Assembly: GCA_022764465.1 (NCBI GenBank)
Contig: JALERL010000015.1
Coordinates: 1 to 64,000 of the forward strand
Direction of reading: 5' to 3'
Length of the DNA stretch: 64,000 nt
From: Lachnospiraceae bacterium
GTDB lineage: Bacteria; Bacillota; Clostridia; Lachnospirales; Lachnospiraceae
A program made the translations under genes and the position numbers. Position 1 is the first letter of the stretch, and each line of letters opens with the position of its first letter. Below are positions 35,640 through 43,773 of the stretch, piece by piece. The notes beneath the pieces were generated by a model that made no database searches, was not told the DNA's origin, and saw only the letters and a program-made list of their open reading frames with translations.

Positions 35640-35833
35640 ATCCTCTCATTTCTGTATTTTGTTTCTATTCTAACGCAGCGTTTTTCTTTCTTCAACCCAA
35701 AATTGGTCTATTTTTTCAATTCCGTCATATATGCCATATTCTGTAACAAAATCCATGATTTTCCATAAATTATTATTGTAAATAAAAAGAATTGATTACA
35801 TGCGCAAATCATATGCGCAGAAAAGAGGATGCT

Positions 35834-36037
35834 ATGAATACTTGTGAACAGTGCGGCAGAAATCAGTATGCACCTTGTTCCGGAAGACTTCCGACATCGA
35901 ACAGGAGTATTGCCATGGCATATGTCCCGTGGCAGCACTTTCAGAATGTCTACGACCCGGATAAAGCCCTGCGGTGCGGCACGATTTTCCCGGAATTAAA
36001 TAAGCCATTTCTTGGAAAGCGGGGTGCCTGTCTATGA
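35834..36037 (+). CDS. cotJA: Spore coat associated protein CotJA
   Basis: AMAYVPWQHFQNVYDPDKALRCGTIFPELNKPFLGKRGAC. Confidence 0.88.
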   Translation: MNTCEQCGRNQYAPCSGRLPTSNRSIAMAYVPWQHFQNVYDPDKALRCGTIFPELNKPFLGKRGACL

Positions 36038-36300
36038 GAAATACACCAATGAACCGGGAACAGCTTTTTCACTGGATCAATGAGGTCAGCTTCGCCGTCA
36101 ACGATATTACCCTTTATCTCGATACCCACCCGGAGGACGAGGAAGCGATCAGTTACTTCAATCACTACAGCGAAATGCGCCGGAAAGCATTAAGAACCTA
36201 TGAAGAACACTATGGACCACTTACGATCGATACCGCTTCCCCAACCGGGAACTGGTGCTGGGCGACCCAGAAATGGCCTTGGGAAGGAGGAAACTGTTAA
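36034..36300 (+). CDS. cotJB: Spore coat protein CotJB
   Basis: HWINEVSFAVNDITLYLDTHPEDEEAISYFNHYSEMRRKAL; C-terminal WCWATQKWPWEGGNC. Confidence 0.92.
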   Translation: MRNTPMNREQLFHWINEVSFAVNDITLYLDTHPEDEEAISYFNHYSEMRRKALRTYEEHYGPLTIDTASPTGNWCWATQKWPWEGGNC

Positions 36301-36908
36301 TGTGGAATTATGAAAAACGATTACAGTGCCCGGTCAACATCACACAGACCAATCCAAAGATCGCACAGGTCATTATCAGCCAGTTCGGCGGACCGGATGG
36401 TGAACTTGCAGCTTCCATGCGTTATCTCTCACAGCGTTACACGATGCCGGATAACCGCGTACAGGGACTGCTCACGGATATAGGCACCGAAGAACTTGGG
36501 CACCTGGAGATTGTGGGCGCAATCATCTATCAGCTGACAAAAAACCTCTCCGTCGAGGAGATCAAGGCTTCGGGCTTTGATAAATACTATGTCGACCACA
36601 CGCTTGCACTCTGGCCACAGGCTGCCGGCGGTATCCCGTTTAATGCCTGCGAGTTCCAGTCAAAAGGCGATGCCATCACCGATCTTTTTGAAAATATGGC
36701 TGCGGAACAGAAAGCACGCACAACCTATGATAACATTCTGCGTCTGGTAAAGGACGAAGAGATCGCAGGCCCGATCCGTTTCCTGCGTACCCGTGAAGTT
36801 GTCCACTTCCAGCGCTTTGGAGAAGCACTCAGTATCATACAGGATAGTCTGGATTCGAAAAACTTCTATGCATTTAACCCTTCTTTTGATAGATGTAACA
36901 AACGGTAA
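36300..36908 (+). CDS. cotJC: CotJC, manganese catalase-like spore coat protein
   Basis: MWNYEKRLQCPVNITQTNPKIAQVIISQFGGPDGELAASMRYLSQRYTMPD; ATG overlaps cotJB stop. Confidence 0.93.
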   Translation: MWNYEKRLQCPVNITQTNPKIAQVIISQFGGPDGELAASMRYLSQRYTMPDNRVQGLLTDIGTEELGHLEIVGAIIYQLTKNLSVEEIKASGFDKYYVDHTLALWPQAAGGIPFNACEFQSKGDAITDLFENMAAEQKARTTYDNILRLVKDEEIAGPIRFLRTREVVHFQRFGEALSIIQDSLDSKNFYAFNPSFDRCNKR

Positions 36909-36962: not shown

Positions 36963-38138
36963 TTATGATACGCCACACAGCTTATCGATCGACTCTAAGA
37001 TCTGTCGTACCTCCGGTATATCGGAACCGAATTCCTTCATCAGACCCTCAATCTCTTCCTTTTGTTCTAAGACCACATCCATATTGTATTCGATCCTGCT
37101 GCGAAGCTTCTGGCGGCGTTCGATCAGATTGTGCTTGATCTCTACCATCTCACGCTTATCCACTAAGGCATCCGCCTGATTCAGCCACACCTTCGGATCA
37201 TAGAGATTGAAATTACGCAGCATCCGAAGCAGCTTGCCGCTGAAATATTCCAGATCCTCGCTTGTACGCTCATACTTCTCACGTTCCCTGTTCGCTTCCA
37301 TATACTGTTCCCACAGATAATTCAGCTCATAGGAATTGTGTACATGGTATTTTTCACAGGCATAATCCACTGCATTCGTCGAATGCACGTACTTGATCTT
37401 CACCTTATTGAGCAGAGTAATTGCACGGTTCGTGTTATTCTCTGCCTTTTTGATCTCCGCCGTATTGTTCTGCATACGGATGTAAATCGCAGTTCCGGCA
37501 GCGCCTCCGGTAAAAAGCAGAATCATAAATAACAGTCTGGTGTCCATCTCAAAGCCCATCTGTAATACCAGAATCACTGCCATCAGGATAATTAGGACAC
37601 CAAACAGCACATAAGATAATCTGCGAAGCAGCTTCTGTTCCGACAAAAGTTCCCGCCTGTAATAGATCCATTCATTCTTCTCCCCATCGAGATACTGCAT
37701 ATCTTTTTTCACCAGTGCCTGATACCGTTCATTCTCCTGTAACGTCCGGATCGCAGATGTAATAATCTTCTCATCCTGCTGCATCTGGTTGTACTGGCTG
37801 TCTGTGATCTTTTTCGAGGTCTGTAAGTAATCATCCCTTGACTGGTTTAAAGTCAGGATATTCGACGCAGCATCCCGTAAAATTCCTGCTTCTTTTTCCG
37901 GCATCTCCTCAATCAGCTGGATATCCTTCAGATAAGAAGTCATCACACGGTACTCTGCCTTCTGTGCCTCTAACTCCTTGGCCGTCTCGATGATCTGCTC
38001 ACAATGATCTAATACATAGTGATGTACCTTGTGCTCGTCTTCCATTTCCTCCGGTGTGAGCACATCCTCCGTCACCTGCTCAAGAATCTCATCTATACTC
38101 TTTTGTTTCTTTTTCCATTTCCGCTTAAATAATTTCAT
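36963..38138 (-). CDS. Two-TM coiled-coil protein (fourth gene of DUF5716/DUF5717-like cassette)
   Basis: Heptad-rich flanks around two TM segments (LSYVLFGVLIILMAVILVLQMGF; RLLFMILLFTGGAAGTAIYI). Confidence 0.75.
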   Translation of the reverse strand: MKLFKRKWKKKQKSIDEILEQVTEDVLTPEEMEDEHKVHHYVLDHCEQIIETAKELEAQKAEYRVMTSYLKDIQLIEEMPEKEAGILRDAASNILTLNQSRDDYLQTSKKITDSQYNQMQQDEKIITSAIRTLQENERYQALVKKDMQYLDGEKNEWIYYRRELLSEQKLLRRLSYVLFGVLIILMAVILVLQMGFEMDTRLLFMILLFTGGAAGTAIYIRMQNNTAEIKKAENNTNRAITLLNKVKIKYVHSTNAVDYACEKYHVHNSYELNYLWEQYMEANREREKYERTSEDLEYFSGKLLRMLRNFNLYDPKVWLNQADALVDKREMVEIKHNLIERRQKLRSRIEYNMDVVLEQKEEIEGLMKEFGSDIPEVRQILESIDKLCGVS

Positions 38139-38163
38139 CTATGTTCTCCTGTGCAGCCGGCCG

Positions 38164-38931
38164 TTACACCCGGCTGTATATTCTGTATCGTTCCTTCCAT
38201 ACCGGTATCCGTTCTCTGGAGATTCCGGTATTTTCCTGCGTTTCGATCGTATCAACCGCCTGCTGCAATCGTTCCATCACACCGCTTTTCCACTCCTTCG
38301 GCGGTTCATAATCACTGACCTGCTCCTTTTGGGATACACACTGCATGGCAAAGTAACGTTCCATCTCTGATTCCGGATTGTTGTTATATTCGTATGCCTT
38401 TTTAAAACATTCCGCCGCCTGTTCATACAAAAACATCTGGGCATTTGCGACTCCCATGTTATGCCAGATACTTCCCTTGTCAAGAGCCGACAATTCTCCA
38501 TCCGGGTATGATAGCAGCCGCCGGTAACACAGAATGCTTTTGACATACTGCTTATTTTTCAGACAACGGTCCGCATTGATCCGTTCCCGCTCTGCAGTAC
38601 TCTTGTTTTCTAATTCCGCGATCTGATGGATCAGTGTCAGCCGTTCCTTCTTCGAAAAATAACTACAGCCGCCGCTCAGTATTCCGATCTGCTCCGCAAG
38701 CGATGCATGATTCTCTCTTGCCTCCTCTAACTCTTTTGCAAGCTCTGTGCAGCCTAACTCCTCTTTTATCCACTGTATAAGTTCCTGACTACAGAAGTTA
38801 TCCCCGATCCGGTCTGTTTCATGACCCAGATAATAACAAAGTTCCTCTAAGGAATAGATATTCAGATCTGTGCCCTCAATATAATACGGCATAGCTGCTA
38901 TACCGGTCTGACATAAGATTAAATCGCCCAT
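38164..38931 (-). CDS. TPR-containing cytosolic protein (third gene of cassette)
   Basis: TPR-like IWHNMGVANAQMFLYEQAAECFKKAYEYNNNPESE; N-terminal PYYIEGTDLNIYSLEELCYYL; RBS AAGGAAGGTG. Confidence 0.8.
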   Translation of the reverse strand: MGDLILCQTGIAAMPYYIEGTDLNIYSLEELCYYLGHETDRIGDNFCSQELIQWIKEELGCTELAKELEEARENHASLAEQIGILSGGCSYFSKKERLTLIHQIAELENKSTAERERINADRCLKNKQYVKSILCYRRLLSYPDGELSALDKGSIWHNMGVANAQMFLYEQAAECFKKAYEYNNNPESEMERYFAMQCVSQKEQVSDYEPPKEWKSGVMERLQQAVDTIETQENTGISRERIPVWKERYRIYSRV

Positions 38932-38944
38932 CGTATCACCTTCC

Positions 38945-40177
38945 TTATAGTTTCATCAGATATTCCCACTTCTTATCGCTGCTGCGGCAGATCTCACCAA
39001 ATCCGAGATCCCGGATCTGTACACGCACCTCATGGTCAGATACCGGCTTAGCCTGTATCCGAAGCCTTGTCATACGGTCTTCCCGCTTTGGCAGATCGGT
39101 CAGTTCCAGTGTACTGATCTTCGCCTCTCTGCTGTCCGGTGCCTGTAACCAGAAGTCGATCTCGGTAGTACCGGATAAGAGGATCTCACATTCCCCCAGT
39201 TCCTCGTACCAGTTCTCACCTGCCTGGATCAGGGAATAAAATGCCAGTTCTCCGTGATCGGTCACCTTCAGGCTGACGTTCATCTTCATCTCATTTTCAC
39301 CCATATAGATGTATTTCCAGTCCAGTACCTCTCCACTGACCGATGCCGCATAAGACGCACCCTTCGAATAAATATTTTTTCCGGCAAATACCCTTCTTCC
39401 GTTGCACAGATAGCGGACGGATTCTTCCATCCAGTCACCGTCGAATCCGTCTCCGGTCAGATAGACCGCAGAAAGGATTTTTTTCCCGATCGCATCTTTT
39501 AAAACATCCAGAAATGCAATATCTTTTCTTCCGATCAAAGGTCCATAGTTCTTCCCATAGATCGTCACAAGCTGAGGTGTCGTCTTCTGATTGCGTTCCA
39601 TCGCAAAAAAGCGCAGATCCGTATGACTGTAATCAAACAGTACCGCATCATGCAGCCATAATTCCTGCTTCTGTGCCAGCGCGTAATAATAAAAGCTTTC
39701 TTTATGATCGATGACTAAAAAATGTCCCGGCATCATATCTAACTTCTCCATCACTGCAGAAAACAGCGTCATATTCTCCCGGTTTAAGGATTCCGTTGTA
39801 AGAACAAGCTGTTCGATCGAGACATTTGGATCGAGTCTTGCAGGGATCAGCAGCATTTTTTTCAAAAATAAGGCAAACAGTTCTACATAGGTATAGGTCT
39901 GCCCATCGACCGCAGCTGTTTCCTTATGTAATGCCCGTTCGTAAAGCTGATGCAGTACCGGCTCGCCTGCACCTTTTGCCATCAGTGCAGCTTCTTCTCC
40001 ATAGAACCACTGTCCGATCCCACTCCTTTTATATAGAAGCATCGGAATCTGGTAGACCTCACTTCCTGCAACCCGGCTTACCGTCTCCGGCTCTATCATA
40101 TCCGCTGCATAATAGCTTAACATCGCATATTCAGTTCCTATATCAAGTCCTACATACAGTTTCCGCTTCTCTGCCAC
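38945..40177 (-). CDS. Hsp70/actin-superfamily ATPase-like protein (DUF5716-like)
   Basis: LYVGLDIGTEYAMLSYY resembles the phosphate-1 motif; VYLTGDGFDGDWMEESVRYL...KGASYAASV resembles the adenosine region of Hsp70s; GTG start at 40177 preceded by AAAGGAGCAGAC (ORF track starts 40213). Confidence 0.75.
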   Translation of the reverse strand: MAEKRKLYVGLDIGTEYAMLSYYAADMIEPETVSRVAGSEVYQIPMLLYKRSGIGQWFYGEEAALMAKGAGEPVLHQLYERALHKETAAVDGQTYTYVELFALFLKKMLLIPARLDPNVSIEQLVLTTESLNRENMTLFSAVMEKLDMMPGHFLVIDHKESFYYYALAQKQELWLHDAVLFDYSHTDLRFFAMERNQKTTPQLVTIYGKNYGPLIGRKDIAFLDVLKDAIGKKILSAVYLTGDGFDGDWMEESVRYLCNGRRVFAGKNIYSKGASYAASVSGEVLDWKYIYMGENEMKMNVSLKVTDHGELAFYSLIQAGENWYEELGECEILLSGTTEIDFWLQAPDSREAKISTLELTDLPKREDRMTRLRIQAKPVSDHEVRVQIRDLGFGEICRSSDKKWEYLMKL

Positions 40178-40215
40178 GTCTGCTCCTTTCGGGATCTGAT
40201 TTTCTCCCGGCAAAA

Positions 40216-43200
40216 TTATAACATATGAAACAGCAGATCATTTAACCGTTCATGGCGGTCATACTGCCACATCATAGCTTCTAAGTCTGCTTCTTTTCCC
40301 ATTGTCTGCTCAAGCAGCATTGCATTGAGCTGCTCATAACGGTTCTTTGCGCTGTGATCACACACATGATGACAGGTCAGTCTGCCACTCTCTGTCACGT
40401 TTGTCTCATGCCCCTTATTCTCGGTAATATAATACTCCACCGATTCATCGATAAAGAGTATGAAATCCTTTACGAAAATACCTTCGAACATATCTGTCAT
40501 CTCTTCGGTGATAAATTCCCTGTCTCCGTTTTCATAACGGTAATGCAGCACCACACGCCTGCCCGGTGCTGTCCGGTATTCAAAAAATACCTTATCATAA
40601 AAATAGAACTGCTCCTGTACAGCTACCGGAAGCTTCTGATAGAATCCAAAATACAGTTTCCGGTCAACAAATTCACGCAAAAGCGGAAGCAGAACGGCTT
40701 CTTTTTCCTTCGTCCATTCCTCTTCGGCTACAACATAAGAAAGCAATGCCAGTTTTGCCACATCTGCCACTTCCTGTTCTTCGCAGACCATTTGCCGGAT
40801 ACCGGAAAAGATCTGTTCCGGCACAACCACCTGTTTTACCAGATGCAGATACGCAAAATAATTCAGGAATGCCTTCTGTACCAGATCGCTTCCACCATGC
40901 GCACAATAACTTGCATATACATCCTCTATGTGTTCTACAAATTCTGAGGTATAAAGCATCTGTACGATCAGACGTTCTTCTAATTCAAAGGCATCCACTT
41001 CAAAGGCAGTGCACGCCTGCCAGAGCCGGTACATACTCTTGGTTGTGCCGCCAAAATAATGAACCAGATAATCTAACATCATCACATCATACTTGCCCTG
41101 TAAAAAAACATAGGAAGTAAGTGAGATGAGAAAATCATCTTCTTCACCCTCACATGATACGATTGCATAACTGCAAAGCGGTACCAGTGCAGCCGGTTTT
41201 AACTGTCCGGCACCATAACGGTTGATGTACTGATACGCCAGTTCATACTGATGGCAGGCAATCAGCTGTTCCACGCAGTAGATCCTGTCATTTCTGCTGC
41301 AGTCTGTAACCGGTGCCGGCAGAAGATACGCTTCAAACAGTTCCGTTTCATCCAGGTGTTCCAAAAAGCGAAGCACCTGGGCATAGAGCGATGCCCGGTA
41401 TTCTTTTCTTAGTTTTTCACTTTTAATCAGCAACAGCAGGTAATCCTTATCCTCAGGCAAAAACATCGTACTCTTGTTACGATCTGCAAAATACTGAAGT
41501 AAAAATGCCGTTTCATATGGTGCATATGCAAGACACTTCCGGAAATAGGTACGTGCACGGATCAGCCGTTCTAACTGATAATTCATGCCCTTTACATACC
41601 GGTTGCCGGATGCATCTTCTAATACGATCACATAATCCTTCGTATAGACCTGAAAATATGCCTCTCCACGGATTACCGGTACAACCTGGATATCCTTAAG
41701 CTGCCAGTGGATCACATAGGCACGGACCGCCTGTCCGAATACCGTCATCTTACGCGTATATAAGATCTTCGCAAGGGATGGAACCAGTTCCTTTTTGATC
41801 ATGCCACGGTCTAATACCTCTGCATAGATCACCGCCAGATTATCATCCATATGTCCTTCCAGGATCTGTTCAACGGCAAACCGCTCCATAACCTCTCTGT
41901 AACTCTGGTAAATCTCAGGTTCTTCTTCCTTTCCTGCTATGATATTTACGAACAATGCTGCCTTCTGCTTATATGGCAGTGAGGTATCGTAGCGGAAATA
42001 CATCTGGATCATCTTTGGCATACGATGGATCTTTCTGCCATCCATCGACATCAGATATGCTTCATTGATCCCGGCAATCCGAAGATCCTTTTCGATTCCC
42101 GCCTCATACCAGCTATGGTATCTGGTGGAAAAGCGCTGCGTCCGCACCAGATACGAACAGATTGCCGCAAGCAGCTCATCCCCCGGATCATGGGCATATA
42201 CCTTCTCTAATACCTTATATAACAACGGCTCGAATGTCCGCACACTACCTAAAAGTCCAGGCACTGCCAGTGTAAGATCCTTCGTAAAGACCTCCTGCCT
42301 GCATGCCCAGTTTAAGACCTGTATTTCAAAGTCTCCCAATCTCGTTAAAAGATATGGATTCTGCCAGAAGATATAATAAGCTTCCAGATACAGAAAGGGA
42401 CTTGCAAAACCGTCACTGACCCTCTGCTCAATCGCCCTAATGCGTGATGCCGGATTCGTATGGAACTCTTCCTTTAAAAACAGACGGATCCAGAACAGCA
42501 TCGGATCTTCACTGTGCAGATGATAAATCTCTTCTACCTGTCTGCTCAGCCGGTCCACATACCCCGGTTCCCGCTCTGCTAATGTACACACATACAGATA
42601 ATATCCGTATAACGGTGTCTGTTTCTCCTTCTGATTCTTTTTAAAATCCGTCAGTATCCACTCCGCTTCCTGCCGCTGCCCGCTTAATAAAAATGCCTGT
42701 GCCCGCATCAGTTCATACCATGCCATATCAGCAGCATACGCCGCATCCTGTGGTATCAGTGATATCAGATGGTTTAATACCTGAAGGCTTCTCTTTGCAC
42801 ACATCGCAGTTCCGATCTTTTTTAAGCGGCAGTCGATATAAAGCTTCGTCAGTTCGATCTTCGCTTCCCGGATCTCTCTCGTATGTTCATCCGCGCGTCT
42901 TCCACTGCCCTGATAAACATAGACCGTCACTTCTTCCTTCTGGTAAGCATTTTCTAAAACCAGCCGTCCAAAGTTTTTCCCTGCATGCAGCTTCGCAGGA
43001 TCGATCAGATACTCGAGCTTACAGGTACTTCCTACGAAGTCCTCCGTCGTAAGCCTCTGCTTTAACAGTACTAAAAAGTCTGCATCCGAAGATACGGTTA
43101 TCTCTAAGTAACCCCACTGATTCTTGATCAGTGGAATTTCTTCCTTCTCTGTCTCAATGATTCCGGCAAATTCATATGCATTTTTCTTTGCATAAAAATG

Positions 43201-43773
43201 CACCGTTTCTTTTTTCCTGATGGAAACTAAGAACTCTTCCATTGCTGTCTTTGATCGCATTCCGCCGGATAATCCCTCATAAAGCATCCGCTCGGTAATC
43301 TCATCCCTGCGGATCAGATTCTTAAAGTTCCCGGATACAAACAGGTGGTAGGCCTCCTCATAATCTTCTCTTGCCAGATTCGCAAAATCAGACAGATTGC
43401 GGATTCTTCCGGTTGACATCTTCGGATAGAGGCGTACAACGGACACAACAAAAGAAAGGTTATATTCTCCCTGGTTACAGATAATGAAAAATTCTCCCTT
43501 TTGAATATCCCCTTCGATAAATCCTTCACTGTGAAATTGATAGCGAATCCTAATCTCATTCCCCTTAAACTGCGGTGTCAGACACTCCATATGCGGATTC
43601 GAAGAATATACCAGACCCTTGACAGCAGAATCCGTCTGACTGCTTATTACAAACTCCCCTGTATAGTCCTGACCTTCTAATACCTCAAGCTCTATCTTAT
43701 CCGTAGAAAGTGCGAGAACAGGTTCTTCATGTTCAAAACTCCCCATTGCCAGCTTCTGAATCCGTTTACGCAA
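40216..43773 (-). CDS. 1185-aa protein, N-terminal beta-sandwich-like region plus long helical repeat region (DUF5717-like)
   Basis: N-terminal LEVLEGQDYTGEFVISSQTDSAVKGLVYSSNPHMECLTPQFKGNEIRIRYQF; long repeat-like helical body; immediately upstream of the Hsp70-like gene. Confidence 0.75.
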   Translation of the reverse strand: MRKRIQKLAMGSFEHEEPVLALSTDKIELEVLEGQDYTGEFVISSQTDSAVKGLVYSSNPHMECLTPQFKGNEIRIRYQFHSEGFIEGDIQKGEFFIICNQGEYNLSFVVSVVRLYPKMSTGRIRNLSDFANLAREDYEEAYHLFVSGNFKNLIRRDEITERMLYEGLSGGMRSKTAMEEFLVSIRKKETVHFYAKKNAYEFAGIIETEKEEIPLIKNQWGYLEITVSSDADFLVLLKQRLTTEDFVGSTCKLEYLIDPAKLHAGKNFGRLVLENAYQKEEVTVYVYQGSGRRADEHTREIREAKIELTKLYIDCRLKKIGTAMCAKRSLQVLNHLISLIPQDAAYAADMAWYELMRAQAFLLSGQRQEAEWILTDFKKNQKEKQTPLYGYYLYVCTLAEREPGYVDRLSRQVEEIYHLHSEDPMLFWIRLFLKEEFHTNPASRIRAIEQRVSDGFASPFLYLEAYYIFWQNPYLLTRLGDFEIQVLNWACRQEVFTKDLTLAVPGLLGSVRTFEPLLYKVLEKVYAHDPGDELLAAICSYLVRTQRFSTRYHSWYEAGIEKDLRIAGINEAYLMSMDGRKIHRMPKMIQMYFRYDTSLPYKQKAALFVNIIAGKEEEPEIYQSYREVMERFAVEQILEGHMDDNLAVIYAEVLDRGMIKKELVPSLAKILYTRKMTVFGQAVRAYVIHWQLKDIQVVPVIRGEAYFQVYTKDYVIVLEDASGNRYVKGMNYQLERLIRARTYFRKCLAYAPYETAFLLQYFADRNKSTMFLPEDKDYLLLLIKSEKLRKEYRASLYAQVLRFLEHLDETELFEAYLLPAPVTDCSRNDRIYCVEQLIACHQYELAYQYINRYGAGQLKPAALVPLCSYAIVSCEGEEDDFLISLTSYVFLQGKYDVMMLDYLVHYFGGTTKSMYRLWQACTAFEVDAFELEERLIVQMLYTSEFVEHIEDVYASYCAHGGSDLVQKAFLNYFAYLHLVKQVVVPEQIFSGIRQMVCEEQEVADVAKLALLSYVVAEEEWTKEKEAVLLPLLREFVDRKLYFGFYQKLPVAVQEQFYFYDKVFFEYRTAPGRRVVLHYRYENGDREFITEEMTDMFEGIFVKDFILFIDESVEYYITENKGHETNVTESGRLTCHHVCDHSAKNRYEQLNAMLLEQTMGKEADLEAMMWQYDRHERLNDLLFHML

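Follow-up and report, generated by a model that had tools for sequence, protein, structure and literature searches.

Four tightly packed genes occupy the minus strand between positions 36963 and 43773 of the window, the whole 64,000-nucleotide stretch of Lachnospiraceae DNA that was analysed; all features of this cassette are given on that strand. In the list of open reading frames they follow each other in the order G, H, T and C, the labels used here for a DUF5717 giant, a DUF5716 protein, a TPR protein and a coiled-coil protein with two transmembrane helices. G (40216..43773, 1185 aa) starts with TTG and has AGGTGG upstream. The longest open reading frame of H (38945..40213, 422 aa) starts at TTG 40213, 2 nt past the end of G. 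GTG 40177, with a product of 410 aa, is probably the better start because it is preceded by AAAGGAG and because 410 aa is also the length over which H aligns with its counterpart in the sister genome L032. T (38164..38931) encodes 255 aa and C (36963..38138) 391 aa. With H starting at GTG 40177, the intergenic gaps are 38, 13 and 25 nt, close to the 14-40 nt given in a preliminary description of this DNA, which had the position and the order of the four genes right.

According to Pfam, DUF5717_N and DUF5717 (PF18984 and PF18983; E-values 4e-272 and 1e-96) together cover the whole of G, H matches DUF5716_C (PF18980; 1e-102) and T has one TPR match. G and H exceed the curated cut-offs of their families by far and over the full profiles, in agreement with the families named for them earlier. 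A search against NCBIfam gave no family, and scans for promoters and terminators yielded nothing of use. Compared with L032, a Lachnospiraceae rumen MAG and the closest named relative, the dN/dS ratios are 0.10 for G, 0.04 for H, 0.09 for T and 0.01 for C. These ratios point to strong purifying selection on each of the four genes, which are hence not chance open reading frames. Next to C, in convergent orientation and beside feoA/feoB, lie the spore coat gene cotJB and the manganese-catalase-like cotJC (window 35792-36908).

The relationship of H to Hsp70 is visible at the level of both profile and structure. A single-sequence phmmer search of DUF5716 against PDB found no match, and the family profile alone, built from 54 members, matched DnaK chains (E-value 1.2e-6). 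The AlphaFold model of H (pLDDT 94.3, pTM 0.90) was compared with PDB by Foldseek. Every one of the best 50 matches is an Hsp70 or an assembly that includes one, with a top E-value of 2.5e-19 and with both the nucleotide-binding domain (NBD) and the substrate-binding domain (SBD) covered; the ribosome-associated-complex structures 6sr6 and 5mb9 are among these 50. The Hsp70/actin fold proposed in the preliminary description thus came out as Hsp70 in both structure prediction and fold search. Model, fold matches and profile agree on an NBD of the actin superfamily followed by a beta SBD without the alpha-helical lid, the beta domain being the end of the protein in the model. This SBD-beta-like domain (residues 300-422, 38945..39316) ends in a conserved DLGFGE hairpin, which in alignment A1 is better conserved than any other motif of the family. 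The sequence otherwise diverges fast, except at a few G, D and F positions. The likeness of the C-terminus to a reduced SBD, noticed earlier, is borne out by the model and by whole-length Foldseek matches.

The nucleotide site is another matter. None of the 54 H relatives has K70, E171, T199, E267 or K270; T11 survives in one and T12 in five, and the phosphate-2 GGGT is lost. The phosphate-1 loop retains D8 in 45 of the 54, and D194 persists in 35, while G341, the CONNECT-2 glycine and the structural G6 are present in all. D194 and G341 lie 60 residues apart in the H of the window and 60-78 across its relatives, versus 143 in DnaK of the same genome and a median of 144 in HspC, the related protein described below. 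Together with the structural elements of the AlphaFold model, this spacing locates the deletion of subdomain IIB approximately at H residues 223-229 (39526..39547); the subdomain takes up about 70-85 residues in other Hsp70s and is the lobe of Hsp70 that contacts GrpE and adenosine. Since K70, E171, T199 and subdomain IIB are lost, ATPase activity of H is unsupported, and by its residues H is a pseudo-Hsp70, not a working ATPase. It may still bind nucleotide without hydrolysis, given the frequent retention of D8 and D194. The GLDIG motif that had suggested a P-loop-like ATPase is instead the phosphate-1 loop typical of actin/Hsp70 superfamily proteins.

The AlphaFold model of G has a pLDDT of 87.4 and an overall pTM of 0.62, so that the relative placement of its domains is uncertain. 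In the model, two beta-sandwiches of the ASH/PapD-like type surround a helical domain; then come a long alpha-solenoid, which carries a beta insert, another beta-sandwich and a helical tail. The first sandwich (ASH/HYDIN PapD-like) comprises residues 1-115 (43429..43773). The second, recognised from the model and from profile alignments, comprises residues 190-290 (42904..43206) and closes the portion that is encoded separately (cl6) in most other families. The solenoid spans residues 294-1055 (40609..42894) with its insert at 673-740 (41554-41757), and the C-terminal sandwich residues 1060-1135 (40369..40596). Foldseek matches to the sandwiches, taken together and not assigned to individual ones, include HYDIN PapD-like 2e6j (TMt 0.68), CEP192 SPD-2 and central-apparatus chains. 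The solenoid matches the TPR scaffolds SKI3, Ctr9 and IFT-A, with weak TPR profile matches in addition. G resembles only scaffold proteins in this search, and the large alpha-solenoid scaffold suspected in the preliminary description is supported by both the model and the matches.

T was expected to be a TPR protein and is one, with a correction: a single recognisable TPR unit (38377-38469, Pfam) is preceded by a conserved N-terminal helical domain (alignment A3). The two TM helices ascribed to C are present as an adjacent hairpin, at residues ~175-193 and ~202-220 by hydropathy (37560-37616 and 37479-37535). C also has homologues in the extended operon described below, at the loci L061, L065, L073 and L077. 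A first C HMM suggested a 485-aa neighbour as a further homologue; this was an artefact of a 950-aa open reading frame in L059, and the neighbour is gltX. In that locus (L059:5764-8613) C and gltX share the 950-aa frame, either as a natural fusion or through an assembly or sequence error.

Conservation was surveyed in 150 genomes of the family (Lachnospiraceae, code f1), 125 of them good. DUF5716 and DUF5717 are each found in 145 of the 150. Both are present in 122 of the good genomes, and the remaining three (G550, G611 and G618) have neither. At least two of these three retain spoIVA, and they could reveal what replaces the system. Few genes of the family are as constant as the two DUFs, which are present in 144 of 149 sampled genera, and they occur in no genome of the class sample outside the order of the window. 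The gene maps of about 60 family loci show the order G-H-T kept nearly everywhere, frequently with a 4-nt overlap of H and T. In five genomes (L084-L088) H and T are fused into one protein of 684-723 aa, which the tree explains by two changes: the fusion arose twice, or it was gained once and lost once. H is single-copy in the genome of the window. C is found in 66 of the 150 genomes. Thus, G, H and T constitute a single-copy, family-wide core operon with C as an optional member, and the conserved co-occurrence predicted earlier holds for three of the four genes. A cassette of typical f1 type was also seen on a short contig (G167:C40, L056) of a family f8 genome with 5% contamination; it is probably a contaminant.

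Elsewhere in the order, in families other than f1 (L061, L064-L083), the DUF5716 profile matches a larger operon. The order there is DUF5717 N-part, DUF5717 rest, HspA, coiled coil-GrpE, HspC, HspB, HspD-VWA and TPR; in some cases C and a gene of ~880 aa, taken to be alaS by its length, come after the TPR gene. For the L064 operon, Pfam assigns four proteins to HSP70, one to GrpE and the first two to DUF5717. We found no description in the literature of this eight-gene operon, which is without a J-protein (L064:5612-19596 and L065-L083). By profile alignments, the split cl6 and cl2 genes are homologous to G, and a separate fusion of DUF5717 exists in family f24 (L066). HspA, HspB and HspD retain K70, E171 and the GGGT loop, and the intact Hsp70s match MreB_Mbl as well. 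HspD carries a VWA domain at its C-terminus in place of the lid. HspA (L064:14037-15716 and orthologues) is longer than DnaK by about 37 residues in the stretch that links the phosphate-2 loop to the second adenosine motif.

HspC connects this operon to H. It matches both HSP70 (1.8e-14) and DUF5716_C (2.2e-33), and it has lost K70, T199 and, mostly, E171 while retaining subdomain IIB. In the tree H is nested in the HspC clade (SH-aLRT 100), where the HspC proteins of f4 and f22 are its nearest relatives; HspB branches as the sister of HspC plus H. Because the other families of the order keep three intact Hsp70s, GrpE, TPR and a split DUF5717, the operon of the window most likely arose by reduction of a four-Hsp70/GrpE machine, a relationship that the preliminary description had missed; the direction of the reduction rests on this quick tree, with SH-aLRT support only and long HspC branches. 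Of the 84 genomes outside f1 that match DUF5716_C, 79 have a full coil-GrpE, whereas all 33 f1 genomes in this sample are without one; in f4, the family nearest to H in the tree, coil-GrpE is just 279 aa long. Weak A4 matches in f1 and elsewhere were read as canonical GrpE rather than coil-GrpE (E-values of about 1e-4 to 1e-8, mostly over ~70-80 positions, in short frames near 200 aa). The simplest history would be stepwise: HspC would have degenerated first, followed by loss of GrpE and the active Hsp70s. The operon comparison suggests that H would also have lost subdomain IIB and that the halves of DUF5717 would have fused.

On balance we lean towards deriving the cassette from a multi-Hsp70 chaperone machine by reduction; what is left would work without ATP, as a peptide-binding scaffold complex. 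G, with its ASH-like domains and TPR-like solenoid, would be the scaffold on which H docks, and H would dock on T as well, as the H-T gene fusions suggest. The beta SBD of H would then be held permanently in place to bind peptides or partners, as in Ssz1; peptide binding by H is an assumption of this model. C, where present, would anchor the complex in the membrane, and any ATP-driven step would need the canonical DnaK of the cell. The conserved G-H-T order, the overlap and fusions of H and T, and the joint loss of G and H all support the existence of a complex. More tentatively, and at somewhat less than an even prospect, such an ATP-independent chaperone-like complex built on a pseudo-Hsp70 and derived from the four-Hsp70 machine may exist family-wide, a bacterial counterpart of Ssz1 in which an ASH/TPR scaffold replaces the J-protein. 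In sum, the DUF assignments, the Hsp70 fold, the scaffold and the conserved gene group of the preliminary description stand, while its ATPase and its polymer are not supported, and a membrane tether cannot be general (the C anchor is confined to 66 of the 150 family genomes).

The strongest rival to this reading is a purely structural scaffold, in which H binds no peptide and is a rigid adaptor joining G and T, with an envelope or division complex as one possible setting. The lost catalytic residues, subdomain IIB and lid would all fit an adaptor, as would the scaffold-only matches of G and the fast divergence of H outside a few G, D and F positions. However, a whole beta SBD with its DLGFGE motif is retained, which an adaptor does not obviously need, and we consider this explanation unlikely. 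A working Hsp70-type ATPase chaperone with a TPR co-factor, as proposed in the preliminary description, could draw on the Hsp70 fold, on D8 in most relatives and on the intact Hsp70s and GrpE of the extended operon. With K70, E171 and T199 in none of 54 relatives, GGGT lost, subdomain IIB deleted together with the adenosine-binding E267/K270 and the GrpE partner gone, it is nevertheless very unlikely. A conflict or defence system related to the GAP1-N2 systems (PMC7159879) is similarly improbable: the extended operon does contain similar parts (HSP70s, GrpE, a degenerate HSP70 and a beta-sandwich/TPR protein), but no GTPase or GAP1 was seen among the genes of the cassette and of the L064 operon, the operon of the window is single-copy and near-universal in the family with a vertical pattern, and PADLOC gave no specific match, its one candidate model, PDC-M61B, matching a pair of canonical Hsp70s from the extended operon. 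The adjoining cotJB/cotJC and a spoIVA gene in the same genome might suggest a sporulation-specific machine. This is disfavoured to the point of being extremely unlikely, since spoIVA is absent from 47 of the 150 family genomes, yet DUF5716 is present in 145; moreover, at least three of the five genomes lacking DUF5716 (G550, G618 and G664) have spoIVA. Finally, an actin-like, MreB/ParM-type polymer has in its favour the actin-superfamily NBD of H and the MreB_Mbl matches of the intact Hsp70s, but with the best 50 fold matches being Hsp70s or Hsp70-holding assemblies, a second domain that is SBD-like and a destroyed nucleotide site, its probability is negligible.

If the chaperone-derived, ATP-independent reading is right, two families with no function in Pfam would become a testable chaperone system, with DUF5716 as a pseudo-Hsp70 and with sister families that keep the four-Hsp70/GrpE/VWA form. 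The cassette would also represent a natural experiment in which a pseudo-chaperone has outlived its active partners, a situation known mainly from eukaryotic Ssz1 and Hsp110. No publication on the function of DUF5716/DUF5717 was found in the open-licence literature, where DUF5716 is named only in an unrelated motif-search mention. This analysis adds the link from DUF5716 to Hsp70 and the existence of DUF5717 in a split form.

Among known systems, G and H are full members of the DUF5717 and DUF5716 Pfam families. H shares with Hsp70/DnaK (PF00012) the nucleotide-binding fold and the beta SBD, but it is without the key catalytic residues, subdomain IIB and the alpha lid. Unlike the filament ATPases MreB and ParM, it has an SBD and its nucleotide site is not intact. 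The GAP1-N2 GTPase systems combine HSP70, GrpE and a truncated HSP70 and are centred on a GTPase and GAP1 (PMC7159879, section 29). The inventory of the extended operon is similar, with HSP70, GrpE, a degenerate HSP70 and a beta-sandwich protein fused to TPR; Pfam found neither GAP1 nor TRAFAC GTPase components among all genes of the cassette and of the L064 operon, and the operon of the window, in contrast, is a single-copy core trait of its family. Ssz1 of the yeast ribosome-associated complex is a non-canonical Hsp70 acting through a dedicated partner, the J-protein Zuo1 (PMC8476630, PMC7083937). H likewise appears to be an Hsp70 fold without catalysis, judged from its residues only. However, Ssz1 is eukaryotic and works with Zuo1, whereas Pfam found no J-domain in the cassette of the window or in the L064 extended operon, and H is also without subdomain IIB. 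H thus resembles Ssz1 in principle and is not a member of the ribosome-associated complex. The extended operon of the other families (L061, L064-L083) has orthologues of G, H (as HspC), T and sometimes C with their gene order kept, in some cases also beside the presumed alaS gene, but it keeps HspA, HspB, HspD-VWA and coil-GrpE and encodes G in two genes.
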